A DNA stretch of 64,000 nucleotides from NCBI GenBank assembly GCA_019752115.1, contig JAIEMN010000022.1, forward strand, positions 124,001-188,000. Direction: 5' to 3'. The notes under the pieces are model-generated. The model searched no databases. It was not told where the DNA came from and saw only the letters and a program-made list of their open reading frames with translations. The position numbers and the translations under genes were made by a program. Shown here in pieces: positions 2,749-57,242 of this stretch; within the stretch, counting starts at the first letter, position 1; every line of letters begins with the position of its first letter. The DNA is from Gemmatimonadaceae bacterium. GTDB taxonomy: Bacteria > Gemmatimonadota > Gemmatimonadetes > Gemmatimonadales > Gemmatimonadaceae.

Positions 2749-3717
2749 ATGACATCCCTCGCCATCGATATTGCGGGCGCCGTGAAGCGATACGATCACC
2801 ATGTGGCGGTGAAGTCGCTCTCTCTCGCGGTCCCCACCGGCAGTGTGTACGGCTTGCTCGGCCCCAACGGCGCTGGCAAGACGACCACCATCCGGATGCT
2901 GCTCAACATCATTGCGCCCGACGAAGGGCGCATCCACGTGCTGGGAAAGCCCAACAGCGATCCCGCCCTGGTGGACCGGATCGGCTATCTCCCGGAGGAA
3001 CGCGGGCTGTACCGGAAGATGGAAGTGCGTCGCGTCCTCCGCTTTTTGGGCGAGCTCAAGGGGCTGGGGGGGCGTGATCTGGAGACGCGCATCGACGCGT
3101 GGCTCGAGCGCATGAGCCTGCGCGGCAACGGCGGGGCCGACTGGAGCACCAGCAAGGTCGACGAGCTCTCGCGCGGCATGCAGCAAAAGGTGCAGTTCAT
3201 TGGCGCCCTGCTGCACGACCCGGAGCTGGTCATTCTCGACGAACCGTTCAGCGGCCTCGACCCGATCAACGCGCAGGCGCTCAAGGACACGGTGGTCGAC
3301 CTCCGCAAGCGCGGGCGCACCGTGATCTTCTCCACGCATATCATGGACAATGCCGAGCGGCTGTGTGACTCGGTGTGCATCATTGCCGGCGGCGAGAAGG
3401 TGCTGGACGGCGCGGTGTCCGCGGTGCGCGATGCGCACGGCACGCGTCTAGTCGCCCTCGGCCTCGACGGCGCGCCCTCACCAGCAGTGCAGGCCGTCCT
3501 TGCCGATCGTGGGCTGGTGCAGCGCGTTGATGATTCCCATCGCTTTCTGGAGATCGAACTCGCCGCCGGGACGAACTCGCAAGCGCTCCTGCACGCACTC
3601 GTCGGAGCCGGTGCCGTCATCGAGCGGTTCGAACGCGTGCGGCCGTCGCTGCATCGCATCTTCCTCGAAAAAGTCGGGGCCACCCATGTGGAAGCGGGGA
3701 TGAGCGGACATGGCTAA
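2749..3717 (+). CDS. ABC transporter ATP-binding protein (NatA-like)
   Basis: A 322-residue ATPase subunit. The Walker A motif GPNGAGKTT is at residues 38-46, the signature LSRGMQQ at 140-146 and Walker B VILDEP at 161-166, with the switch histidine in FSTHIMD. The extra C-terminal domain of roughly 100 residues is typical of the NatA/drug-export branch with ABC-2 permeases. The ATG at 2749 opens exactly at the domain; a longer in-frame opening at 2710 adds an unconserved leader. The stop overlaps the permease start by 8 bases, so the two are translationally coupled and form one exporter. Confidence 0.93.
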   Translation: MTSLAIDIAGAVKRYDHHVAVKSLSLAVPTGSVYGLLGPNGAGKTTTIRMLLNIIAPDEGRIHVLGKPNSDPALVDRIGYLPEERGLYRKMEVRRVLRFLGELKGLGGRDLETRIDAWLERMSLRGNGGADWSTSKVDELSRGMQQKVQFIGALLHDPELVILDEPFSGLDPINAQALKDTVVDLRKRGRTVIFSTHIMDNAERLCDSVCIIAGGEKVLDGAVSAVRDAHGTRLVALGLDGAPSPAVQAVLADRGLVQRVDDSHRFLEIELAAGTNSQALLHALVGAGAVIERFERVRPSLHRIFLEKVGATHVEAGMSGHG

Positions 3718-5188: not shown

Positions 5189-5283
5189 CATTTTCGTGGC
5201 GGATCCCTGATCCACCGCAACGCCAGCTCAGTGAGGGCGGCTGACGAGGCGCTCACTGGAGCCCTCCGGACAGAGAGGCGGTT

Positions 5284-5460
5284 ATGTCGACGATGACAAC
5301 GCTCGTCCGCCGGTTTACTGCGGATGACTCGGGTGCCTCGCTCGTCGAGTATGGGATGCTGGTGCTGCTGATTGCGGTGGTGGTCATTGGAGCCGTCACC
5401 ACGCTCGGCACGAAGATCAACACGGGCTTCGGCAAGGTGAATACGGCGCTGCCGAACTAG
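5284..5460 (+). CDS. flp: Flp/Fap-type pilin 1
   Basis: A 58-residue class III signal protein. A short basic leader ends at Gly17. The mature part begins with ASLVEYG, giving the Glu at +5 and Tyr at +6 that define Flp pilins, then one hydrophobic helix (about residues 22-40) and a short polar tail ending LPN. CpaA, encoded just downstream, would cut after Gly17. This is the likely major or one of two major subunits of the Tad pilus. It opens the tad operon; the next gene starts 15 bases after its stop. It is shorter than 60 residues and easily missed. Confidence 0.9.
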   Translation: MSTMTTLVRRFTADDSGASLVEYGMLVLLIAVVVIGAVTTLGTKINTGFGKVNTALPN

Positions 5461-50408: not shown

Positions 50409-52088
50409 GTGCCCTTTGCCCCTGCCCTTTCCCGCTGGACCCGCCGTGCGGGTCTCGCCGCCTCCCTCGCGGCGCTTCCCGCCACCCCGCTCGCCCTCCC
50501 GGCGCAGGCCGCGGCCCAGCCAGCAACAGCCGCCGCCGATCCGCGCCTCGAGAAGCTGAAGGCCGAAGCGCTGCAGATGGTGGAGGCGCGCTCCAAGCAG
50601 GTGCAGGAAATCGTGGACATGCTCTTCTCCTTCCAGGAACTCGGCTTCCAGGAATTCGAGACGCAGAAGTACATCACCACGCTGCTGGCCAAGGAAGGGT
50701 TCACGATCGAGAAGGGCGTCGCCGGCATGCCGAGCGCGTGGACGGCGAAGTGGAGCTACGGGACCGGCAAGCCGGAGATCTCGCTGGGCTCGGACGTGGA
50801 CGGCATCCCGCAGGCCAGCAACAAGCCGGGCGTGGGCTACAAGGATCCGATGATCACCGGCGGCCCGGGGCATGGCGAAGGGCACAACTCCGGGCAGGCC
50901 GTGAACATCGTGGCCGCGATTGTCGTGAAGCAGCTCATGATGCGCGACAAGATCAACGGCACAATCCTGCTCTGGCCGGGCATCGCCGAAGAGCAGATGG
51001 CCGGCAAGGCGTTCCTCGTGCGCGCGGGCATCTTCAAGAACACCGACGTGACGCTCTTCACGCACGTCGGCAATGATCTGGGCGTGTCGTACGGCCCGAG
51101 CGGCTCGAGCGCGCTGATCTCGGCTGAATTCAAGTTCCGTGGCGAAAGCGCGCACGCCGCCGGGGCGCCATGGAGCGGCCGCTCGGCGCTCGACGCCGCG
51201 ATGCTCATGGGCACGGGCTGGGAATATCGCCGTGAGCACCTGCGCCTCGCGCAGCGCTCGCACTATGTCATCAAGGACGGCGGCGACCAGCCGAACGTGG
51301 TGCCCAGCACGGCGAGCATCTGGTTCTACTTCCGCGAGGAAGACTACCCGCGCACGATGGCGCTCTTCGAGATCGGCAAGCAGATCGCGGCCGGCGCGGC
51401 CATGATGACGAACACCAAGCTCGACACGGTGAACATTCTGGGCAGCGGCTGGAGCGGCCATTTCAGCAAGCCGATCGCCGAAGCGATGCACGCCAACATC
51501 CAGGTGGTGGGCATGCCCAAGTGGGACGACAAGGACCAGACGATCGCCAAGGGCATTCAGGCCGAACTCGGCAATCCGGCGTTCGGGTTGGCGAACGATG
51601 TGAACAAGCAGCTCCGCGGTGGCGATACCCGTGCCTTCACGGGCGGTGGCTCGGACGACATCGGCGACGTGTCGTGGAATGTGCCGACGGTGACGCTGCG
51701 CTATCCGTCGAACATTCCGGGGCTGCCGGGGCACAACTGGGCGAACGCCATATCGATGGCCACGCCGATCGCCCACAAGGGCGCGCTCGCTGGGGCGAAG
51801 GTGCAGGCGATGACGATGCTCGACATCTTCCTGACGCCCAAGGTCGTGGCGGACGCGTGGGATTACTTCAAAAACGTCCAGACGAAGGACGTGAAGTACC
51901 AGCCATTCATCCGGCCCTCGGACATGCCGCCCACGTATCTGAACGCCGAGATCATGGCGCGCTTCCGCGAGCAGCAGAAGAAGTTCTACTACGATCCGAC
52001 GAAGTATAAGACGTACCTGGAGCAGCTCGGGATCGAGTACCCGACGGTGCGGCCGCAGGTGACGAAGCCGAAGGGGAACAACAATTAA
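50409..52088 (+). CDS. Exported M20 amidohydrolase, aminobenzoyl-glutamate hydrolase AbgB-like
   Basis: A 559-residue peptidase. An Ala-rich signal region (residues 10-40) is followed by the M20 fold: FSFQELGFQEFETQKY, SDVDGIPQ, GHGEGHNSG and the Glu pair in GIAEEQMAGK. The dimerisation domain has RGESAHAAGAPWSG. These features match AbgB-type carboxypeptidases cleaving p-aminobenzoyl-glutamate or other N-acyl amino acids. It starts at a GTG with AGGAGA upstream. A second M20 gene follows across a long hairpin repeat. Confidence 0.9.
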   Translation: MPFAPALSRWTRRAGLAASLAALPATPLALPAQAAAQPATAAADPRLEKLKAEALQMVEARSKQVQEIVDMLFSFQELGFQEFETQKYITTLLAKEGFTIEKGVAGMPSAWTAKWSYGTGKPEISLGSDVDGIPQASNKPGVGYKDPMITGGPGHGEGHNSGQAVNIVAAIVVKQLMMRDKINGTILLWPGIAEEQMAGKAFLVRAGIFKNTDVTLFTHVGNDLGVSYGPSGSSALISAEFKFRGESAHAAGAPWSGRSALDAAMLMGTGWEYRREHLRLAQRSHYVIKDGGDQPNVVPSTASIWFYFREEDYPRTMALFEIGKQIAAGAAMMTNTKLDTVNILGSGWSGHFSKPIAEAMHANIQVVGMPKWDDKDQTIAKGIQAELGNPAFGLANDVNKQLRGGDTRAFTGGGSDDIGDVSWNVPTVTLRYPSNIPGLPGHNWANAISMATPIAHKGALAGAKVQAMTMLDIFLTPKVVADAWDYFKNVQTKDVKYQPFIRPSDMPPTYLNAEIMARFREQQKKFYYDPTKYKTYLEQLGIEYPTVRPQVTKPKGNNN

Positions 52089-52092
52089 CTCA

Positions 52093-52169
52093 CAACTCAT
52101 GACCTAAAGCTCGGAACCCTGAACTGATCGGTTTTGTGTTTCGGGTTTTAGGTCGTGGGTTCTGGGTTT
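52093..52169. repeat. Long imperfect hairpin repeat, copy 1
   Basis: Between the two M20 genes lies an imperfect inverted repeat with arms of about 32-38 bases around the loop TGATCG (52125-52130). Bases 52101-52133 match copy 2 (56478-56510) at 28 of 33 positions, so the two are members of one dispersed family. The right arm ends 17 bases before the next ATG (52187) and may act as an attenuator. Confidence 0.7.
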
Positions 52170-53503: not shown

Positions 53504-53516
53504 GTTGGACTAAAGG

Positions 53517-53616
53517 GCTCGCACAGAGTGCACGAAGAGCCACAGGGGGCACGGAGAACAGCGCAGCACTGGCTGTCTCTGTGTCCCCTGTGGCTCTTTG
53601 TGCACTCTGTGCGAGC
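53517..53616. repeat. 100-base near-perfect palindrome between convergent genes
   Basis: Arms 53517-53561 and 53573-53616 pair over about 44 bases around an 11-base loop. Only three mismatches and one extra base are present, and on the plus-strand RNA the three mismatches become G-U pairs. It fills almost the whole gap between the M20D gene and the convergent aminotransferase gene and would end both transcripts. Similar accgtgtcctctgtggctct-style palindromes recur between genes in several bacterial phyla; that comparison is from memory. Confidence 0.75.
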
Positions 53617-53627
53617 AGTTCGGCGAA

Positions 53628-54996: not shown

Positions 54997-56484
54997 ATGG
55001 CCGATCCGACCCCTTCGCGTGACAGTGCCCCCTTTCTGGGCGATCTCCCCGCCGATGACTTCCGCGCCGCCGCCCACGCGGCGGTCGACTGGATCGCTGA
55101 CTATCTCGAGCATCCGCAGCAGTATCCCGTGCGGAGCCGCGTGCAGCCTGGCGATGTGCGAGAGGCGCTGCCCGCGTCGCCGCCGACGCGCGGGGAACCG
55201 CTCGATGCGATGCTGCGCGACTTCCACAGCACCGTCCTCCCCGGCATCACCCACTGGAATCATCCCGGGTTCATGGCGTACTTCGCGAACAGCGCGTCGT
55301 ACCCGGGCATTCTGGGGGAGCTGCTGGCCGCCGCGTTGAATGCGAACGGCATGCTCTGGGTCACCAGCCCGGCGGTGACGGAACTCGAGCAGGTGGCCGT
55401 GGACTGGCTGCGCCAGCTCATGGGGCTGGGCGAGGGGTGGTTCGGCCAGATCACCGACACCGCCAGCGTGTCCACGTTCTATGCGCTCGCGGCGGCGCGT
55501 GAACGCGCGGGGCTGGATGTCCGCGCGCAGGGGATGGCCGGTCGCGCCGACATGCCGGTGCTGCGCGTGTACGCGAGCGAGCATGTGCACTCGAGCATCG
55601 ACAAGGCGGTCATTGCCCTCGGGCTCGGCCACGACAATCTCGTGAAGGTGCCGGCCGACGCGCAGTTCCGCATGCGCGCCGACGCGCTGGAGCAGGCGAT
55701 CGCCGACGACGTGGCGCGCGGATATCGACCGATCGCGATCGTGCCCTGCGTTGGCACGACGAGCGTCACCAGTATCGATCCGGTGCCTGACGTGGTCCGC
55801 ATCGCCCGTCGCTACGACTGCTGGGTGCATGTGGACGCCGCCTATGGCGGACCGGCGGCGATCGTCCCCGAACTGCGCTATCTGCTCGACGGCGTGGACG
55901 GTGCCGACTCGCTGGTGGTGAATCCGCACAAATGGCTGTTCACTCCCATGGATTGCTCGGTGCTGTATACCAAGCATCCCGACGCGCTCAAGCAAGCCTT
56001 TGCGCTGCTGCCGGAGTATCTCGTCACGAAGACGCAGGATTCGGCGGTCAACCTGATGGATTACGGCATTCAGCTCGGGCGCCGCTTCCGGTCCCTCAAG
56101 CTGTGGATGGTGTTGCGCGCGTATGGCGCCGACGGACTCGCCGAACGCATTCGCTTTCACTGCGAGCTGGCGCGCGAGTTCGCGGGCATGGTGCACTTCG
56201 AACAGGGCGGCTGGGAGCTCACCGCTCCCGTGACGCTCTCGCTGGTGTGCTTCCGCTATGCGCCGGCCGGCTGGCGTGAGGAGCAGATTGCCGCCGTGAA
56301 CGCGCAGATCATGGAGCGCGTGAACGCCAGCGGTGACGCTTATCTGTCGCACACGAAGATCGCCGGGCGCTACACCCTCCGCCTCGCGATCGGCAACATT
56401 CGCACCGACCGGGTGCATATCACCCGCGCGTGGGCAGCCCTGCGAGAAGCCGCAGCCGCCGTCGACCCACAACCCACGACCTAA
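54997..56484 (+). CDS. PLP-dependent aromatic L-amino acid decarboxylase (DDC family)
   Basis: A 495-residue group II decarboxylase. Lys312 in NPHKWLFTP binds PLP; Asp280 in WVHVDAAYGG and ITHWNHPGFMAYFANS near residue 84 are the other conserved parts. It decarboxylates Trp, Phe, DOPA or related amino acids to amines. The gene is divergent from the aminotransferase gene, 43 bases apart. Its final six residues (DPQPTT) and stop codon come from the hairpin repeat at 56464-56543, so the C-terminus was probably replaced. Confidence 0.93.
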   Translation: MADPTPSRDSAPFLGDLPADDFRAAAHAAVDWIADYLEHPQQYPVRSRVQPGDVREALPASPPTRGEPLDAMLRDFHSTVLPGITHWNHPGFMAYFANSASYPGILGELLAAALNANGMLWVTSPAVTELEQVAVDWLRQLMGLGEGWFGQITDTASVSTFYALAAARERAGLDVRAQGMAGRADMPVLRVYASEHVHSSIDKAVIALGLGHDNLVKVPADAQFRMRADALEQAIADDVARGYRPIAIVPCVGTTSVTSIDPVPDVVRIARRYDCWVHVDAAYGGPAAIVPELRYLLDGVDGADSLVVNPHKWLFTPMDCSVLYTKHPDALKQAFALLPEYLVTKTQDSAVNLMDYGIQLGRRFRSLKLWMVLRAYGADGLAERIRFHCELAREFAGMVHFEQGGWELTAPVTLSLVCFRYAPAGWREEQIAAVNAQIMERVNASGDAYLSHTKIAGRYTLRLAIGNIRTDRVHITRAWAALREAAAAVDPQPTT

Positions 56485-56543
56485 AGCCCGAAACCCAGAA
56501 CCGATCAGTTCTGGGTTTCGGGTTCTTGGTCTTGGGTTTCGGG
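56464..56543. repeat. Long hairpin repeat, copy 2, shared by two gene ends
   Basis: A perfect 15-bp stem (56487-56501 and 56508-56522, loop CGATCA) lies inside longer imperfect arms that reach about 56464 and 56543. It matches copy 1 at 52101-52133 (28 of 33). The decarboxylase stop (56482-56484) is in the left arm and the DedA stop (56505-56507) is in the loop, so both convergent genes end inside the element. Confidence 0.75.
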
Positions 56544-57179
56544 TACTCGGTGCGGCCTGGTCTTCCGTAACGCCTTCCGCTCGCGCCGCCGGCGGTCCCA
56601 CTTGAAGAACGCGATCACCGCGGTGGTCACGGCGATCGCGCCGATGACCTCGCCCACGCGCCCGAAGTGCCCCATCGCCTGCACGGCGGCTTCACCGGCC
56701 GCGTAGCCCACACCGGTGAATACCGCTGTCCAGATAGCGGAACCGACGAGCGACACCGGCAGGTAGATGTACAACGGGACCCGCGCGGCACCGCAGGCCA
56801 TCGGCAGCACGATCCGCAACCCGAAGGCGAAGCGTACGAAGAACGACGCCTTCAGTTGGTTGTTGCGGACGACCCGTAGGGCCACGGTGCCCGTGGCGCG
56901 TGCCTTGGGGAAACGGCGCCGGATCGCCTCCCACTTGAGGCGCCCGAGCGCGTAGAGCAACGCGCCCGCGATCCACCCGCCAAGGGTGATGGCCACGATG
57001 ACCCGGCTGATCTGCAACTCCCCTTCGTGGGCGGCGATGCCGCCGAAGATGGGGCCGAGTTCCTCCGTCACGATCGCCGTGGCCCCGAGCACCACGTACG
57101 TCCACGGGGCGTCGGAGAGCGCGGCCAACCACGATGCGGCGTCGGCGAGCAGGGCGAGAGGCAGGAACGGCGGTCGCAT
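56505..57179 (-). CDS. DedA-family membrane protein
   Basis: A 224-residue DedA/SNARE-associated protein with five or six membrane segments. It has GxxxPGxE-related EELGPIFGGIAA, the FVRFAFGLRIVLPMACG segment with the conserved Arg, and a late membrane helix. DedA proteins flip polyprenyl phosphate or phospholipid. The ATG at 57179 is preferred over an upstream one at 57233. Its last dozen residues (repeated PETQ units) are encoded by the hairpin repeat and are not part of the family fold. Confidence 0.88.
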   Translation of the reverse strand: MRPPFLPLALLADAASWLAALSDAPWTYVVLGATAIVTEELGPIFGGIAAHEGELQISRVIVAITLGGWIAGALLYALGRLKWEAIRRRFPKARATGTVALRVVRNNQLKASFFVRFAFGLRIVLPMACGAARVPLYIYLPVSLVGSAIWTAVFTGVGYAAGEAAVQAMGHFGRVGEVIGAIAVTTAVIAFFKWDRRRRERKALRKTRPHRVPETQDQEPETQN

Positions 57180-57201
57180 GGGGATGGTGAATCTACACCA
57201 A

Positions 57202-57242
57202 ACGACCGCGGCAGTTGGGGAGTGCCCAACCACCGCGGTCGT
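57202..57242 (-). terminator. Composite hairpin ending the efflux operon
   Basis: Perfect outer arms of 10 bp (57202-57211 and 57233-57242) and a perfect inner 6-bp stem (57214-57219 and 57225-57230) are separated by CA on both sides. It lies 33 bases past the minus-strand stop at 57275, before the DedA gene. On that strand TTTGGTGTAG follows. Confidence 0.7.

Follow-up and report, generated by a model that had tools for sequence, protein, structure and literature searches.

A REP-like family of heptamer-built palindromes at gene 3′ ends in Gemmatimonas supplies C-terminal residues to some neighbouring proteins

A palindromic element present in about 60 copies, far above chance, is dispersed through the genome of a Gemmatimonas-like bacterium. 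We think it probable that these copies form a REP-like family of inverted ACCCNNN/GGGTNNN heptamers around a AACTGATCAGTT centre, which occupies gene 3′ ends and forms a hairpin at the 3′ ends of mRNAs. The hairpin may act as a terminator or as end protection. Of the readings considered, this hairpin at 3′ ends appears the most likely one for the element. In several genes the element also supplies the last codons and the stop, so that a non-coding repeat has become a real protein end.

Two copies in the window, that is, in the whole stretch of 64,000 nucleotides that was analysed, and their neighbouring genes are as follows.

50409 to 52088, plus strand: M20-type peptidase gene, its stop directly next to the second copy
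52088 to 52167, no strand assigned: second copy of the element, starting on the final base of the upstream TAA
54997 to 56484, plus strand: pyridoxal-dependent decarboxylase, domain match to PF00282
56464 to 56484, plus strand: tail of this PLP-dependent decarboxylase, the last six codons (DPQPTT) and the TAA stop, in the left arm
56465 to 56544, no strand assigned: palindromic repeat element of 80 bp with ACCCNNN heptamer arms and centre ACCGATCAGT
56505 to 56543, minus strand: tail of the DedA/VTT-domain protein, the last twelve codons (PETQDQEPETQN) and the TGA stop, in the right arm and centre
56505 to 57233, minus strand: DedA-like membrane protein, domain match to the PF09335 VTT domain (the gene caller places its start at 57179)

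The copy at 56465-56544 is a near-perfect palindrome (arms 56465-56504 and 56505-56544) between two convergent genes, the decarboxylase and the DedA-like gene. A preliminary description had placed this hairpin at 56464-56543; the hairpin is real, with borders that were off by one. Its folding energy is -51.5/-53.2 kcal/mol on the two strands versus -23/-25 in shuffles (z about -9 on both), and 37 bp are paired in the intact palindrome. By translation, the decarboxylase reading frame stops in one arm and that of DedA at the centre, as had been proposed. This bears out the further claim that the element supplies the last six residues of the former and about a dozen (twelve) of the latter. The decarboxylase ends ...AAAAV-DPQPTT-TAA, with its six tail codons at 56464-56481; the G of the first of these falls outside the left arm. 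The DedA-like protein ends ...PHRV-PETQDQEPETQN-TGA, with its twelve codons at 56508-56543. The second window copy had been recognised as a related family member, which it is, at 52093-52169; its borders are corrected here to 52088-52167. It contributes no tail, and its first A closes the TAA of the M20 peptidase.

Genome searches agree with the initial view that the hairpin belongs to a dispersed family. In the host genome (a draft of 5.17 Mb in 83 contigs, 97% complete), a BLAST search gave 41 clusters and a covariance model found about 54 full copies. A profile search of the loci raised the number to 61 places, half and inside-out copies included. The family consensus is ACCCACAACCCACGACCAAAAGCCCGAAACCCTGAACTGATCAGTTCTGGGTTTCGGGTTTTTGGTCGTGGGTTGTGGGT, with five ACCCNNN-like heptamers per arm. 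Conservation within the heptamer is highest at positions 1, 2 and 4 and lowest at position 6, with an information content of about 2 bits at position 2 and about 0.75 bits at position 6. Copies are on average 83% identical in pairs. The two arms match each other better within a copy than between copies (86% vs 81%, permutation p 5e-5), and 71 cells are changed on both sides, against 34 in shuffles; the covariation score exceeds all 500 shuffles and all slid registers. No Rfam covariance model matched either window copy at E 1 or better, searches of plasmids and phages returned no match, and a search for long pure ACCCNNN arrays elsewhere gave just two overlapping pattern hits, both inside one inside-out copy.

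Variants of the element also occur. A shorter subfamily of about 70 bp is found at L060 5133-5203, L063 4302-4371, L111, L112, L113 and L119, and the two members examined in full have ACCCCAAACCC-type arms around the same AACTGATCAGTT centre. A single half copy lies downstream of a gene stop (L058 3001-3047). Two inside-out copies, in which the GGGT arm precedes the ACCC arm, sit in one suf cluster (L039), between sufB and sufC (3000-3092) and between sufD and a nifU-like gene (5191-5303). The window also holds an unrelated second hairpin family at 53510-53625, between two convergent genes, with 41-nt arms of CACAGAG/CACGGAG-type repeats that are 93% complementary and about 20 dispersed copies in the genome. 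This hairpin matches eukaryotic microRNA models in Rfam weakly, below curated cut-offs, probably merely because of its long hairpin shape.

The copies sit almost exactly where genes end. A gene 3′ end falls inside the element in 19 of 58 copies and at most 12 bp away in 30 more, making 49 of 58, whereas 12% of random intergenic positions in the window come as close as 12 bp to a gene 3′ end. More weight attaches to the 30 copies just outside stops, because a repeat that inserts into a coding frame will tend to bring the gene to an end within its own sequence. Most copies lie just after the stop codon. Convergent junctions are enriched (26 of 61 element places vs 29 of 232 junctions without an element) and divergent junctions depleted (4 of 61 vs 42 of 232). 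This is the distribution of a REP: a dispersed extragenic palindrome adjoining the 3′ ends of convergent or tandem genes.

About 11 genes longer than 360 bp, the decarboxylase and DedA-like genes among them, end in 5-12 element-encoded residues, an approximate count from a home-made gene caller. In 15 congeneric genomes the orthologs of these two genes lie next to each other as a convergent pair, -32 to +30 bp apart, which provides a control for the origin of such tails. It had been set down beforehand that orthologs without the hairpin but with the same C-terminal residues would speak against this origin. All 15 pairs lack the element, and neither DPQPTT nor PETQDQEPETQN occurs in any of them; their C-termini (for example ...AAAALEAGA and ...AAAAAESVPA; ...RRNKR and ...ASRHDA) have nothing in common with the element tails. 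The element has therefore taken the place of a few residues and contributed new ones. By the alignments, the net change in length comes to about +2 to +6 (decarboxylase) and about +4 to +15 (DedA-like protein), and varies among orthologs. IlvD ends here in GAVTHSGTRRF-QPTTQNQEPETLN, while its orthologs end in GAVTHSGPV and similar sequences, and a glycosyltransferase-like protein has the same tail pattern. The earlier statement that the element rewrites protein C-termini thus holds in that tails are supplied, but the effect is modest in residues and genes alike. We regard the tails as a by-product of the element, which is the best reading. Together, the decarboxylase, the DedA-like protein and IlvD provide an ortholog-controlled case of a non-coding repeat turned into real protein ends.

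The proposed function would work as follows. Transcription would place the window copy at the end of both convergent mRNAs, where it would fold into a hairpin that ends or protects them; the inner stem followed by TTTTT and preceded by AAAAA has the geometry that a bidirectional terminator would need. A copy that spans a stop codon would close the frame with stops of its own (TAA at position 18, present in many copies; TGA at positions 33 and 38), and the displaced last residues would be exchanged for element-encoded ones of the QPTTQNQKPETQN type. A dispensable C-terminus would explain why such tails are tolerated. Among the terminator-like sites in 20 kb, the window copy ranks first (17 pairs); the terminator scan of these 20 kb gave no overall excess over shuffles (7 vs 9). 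On the plus strand, 5-6 of the 8 bases that follow the inner stem are T in most copies; the minus strand has fewer. At several copies between tandem genes the next start codon is 13-24 bp away, and the inside-out copies stand within the suf cluster; their form, to judge by its sequence, lacks the stem-then-T geometry. Not all of these copies can therefore be strong terminators.

By comparison with named genomes the relatives fall in Gemmatimonas, the neighbourhood being that of Gemmatimonas/Gemmatimonadetes MAGs. The covariance model matches 19 of 61 related genomes, namely 18 of 30 from the same genus (host included) and one from a sister genus. Matches were listed on both strands, making the copies about half the match number. 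Copy number ranges from 0 to about 60 per congener, these counts being lower bounds owing to strict filters and a model biased to the host genome. Versions in other species are about 78 bp long, with the same centre and different arms. Among three sister species, with flanks about 87-97% identical, most copies are common by position; where a copy is missing in relatives the spacer is remodelled, with possible remnants at L167. At four loci (L197, L198, L201, L203) an unrelated hairpin of similar size stands at the gene end where a sister species has the element. The comparison suggests that hairpins turn over at fixed gene ends. Orthologous copies in the sister species show 35 double changes against 12 expected; the pair is kept in 14 only, and recent selection for pairing is therefore weak or absent. 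At most of the orthologous decarboxylase/DedA junctions a strong hairpin is absent (z values largely from -1.7 to +1.2, with a single -2.5), so the hairpin is not required at this site.

The family has dispersed, and it may be mobile. The preliminary description went further, calling the hairpin a mobile intergenic element and proposing a search for an associated RAYT-type transposase elsewhere. No Y1 transposase (PF01797, RAYT/IS200) was found in the 97% complete host draft or in the copy-rich genomes G001, G022 and G028, and the domain, present in 8 of 30 congeners, has no clear relation to element copy number. The idea of a RAYT-mobilised REP, with its associated Y1 tyrosine transposase, accordingly finds no support in these four genomes, and target-site duplication, a mark of MITEs, shows no excess over shuffled flanks. 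Broader is the alternative that the family is a selfish, non-autonomous MITE or REP that depends on a transposase, RAYT/IS200-type or other, inserts preferentially near stops and has no host function. Its copies are indeed dispersed and palindromic, their number varies widely across congeners, and the element at the DedA site is absent in all relatives examined. On the other side stand the missing Y1 transposase (PF01797 being the one class screened), target-site duplication no higher than chance, copies kept at positions common to the three sister species, and no clean empty site in G006, G009, G018, G005 or G016, where the flanks are remodelled and sometimes carry an unrelated hairpin. We therefore rate a purely selfish element as rather unlikely, though worth keeping in mind.

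More speculatively still, the element may be a genus-specific portable gene-end cassette: it would offer a stop in most of the frames from which it is entered, together with a hairpin that terminates in both directions, spread without a RAYT, keep its arms complementary by paired changes, and be swapped between sister species for an unrelated hairpin at a given gene end. We advance this combination only tentatively, as a long shot compared with the 3′-end hairpin itself.

It is quite improbable that the element is essentially a G-rich GGGTNNN repeat of the Xanthomonas/Nostoc GGGAATC kind, with a G-quadruplex in the G-rich strand as the main actor and inversion secondary. The clear heptamer register, the single half copy at L058, and the Xanthomonas repeats, which are likewise often inverted and nearer the upstream 3′ end (on average 28 nt vs 160 nt; PMC4692102), would fit such a structure. 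However, the third heptamer has GG only, the pairing of the long palindrome should outcompete a quadruplex, and the variable loop positions covary between the arms, which a quadruplex does not need. A chance overlap or gene-calling artefact with the true stops elsewhere is scarcely credible: nothing specific favours it, ortholog homology simply stopping at the element, while homology to orthologs runs up to that point in both frames, the stops are in frame, and the tail type recurs on IlvD and others.

The 3′-end palindrome family described here has counterparts in other bacteria. Our literature search on Gemmatimonas repeats found nothing relevant and no description of this family, which appears to be new and of a known kind, adding a repeat family in Gemmatimonas. 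The GTAG- and CGTC-tagged REP sequences are short dispersed palindromes; most occupy the space between convergent or tandem genes, no more than about 20 bp from a 3′ end, and they provide stop codons to flanking genes (PMC3733652). Our family resembles them in its dispersed palindromes near the 3′ ends of convergent or tandem genes, which sometimes supply a stop and residues, and resembles the CGTC type, for which there is no dedicated transposase (PMC3733652), in lacking a dedicated RAYT in the host genome. Unlike REPs of 20-40 bp (PMC3733652), its members are 80 bp long with heptamer-built arms. Neither end of the consensus has a GTAG or CGTC tag, the copies ending ACCC...GGGT; in view of this and of the lack of a RAYT, we call the family REP-like and not a member of the GTAG/CGTC superfamilies. 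Because a copy at one site may be shared, missing or replaced from one sister species to the next, the family is a good system for studying how REP-like repeats originate and persist without a RAYT transposase.

The GGGAATC heptamers of Xanthomonas occur as inverted pairs on the downstream side of genes (PMC4692102). Like these and the G-rich heptamers of Nostoc (GGGGA(C/T)T; PMC4692102), the present family has a seven-base register with a fixed G-run and variable positions, is often inverted, and is intergenic and close to an upstream 3′ end. It differs in its GGGTNNN heptamer, nearly fixed length and fixed AACTGATCAGTT centre, and in having no variable-length tandem arrays (PMC4692102). Rickettsia palindromic elements (RPE; PMC10969869) and enterobacterial RU repeats with reading frames (PMC2759123) add residues to host proteins, as our family does. 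RPE and RU repeats often lie in frame inside genes, whereas every clear case in our family is a C-terminal tail ended by a stop codon of the element itself.
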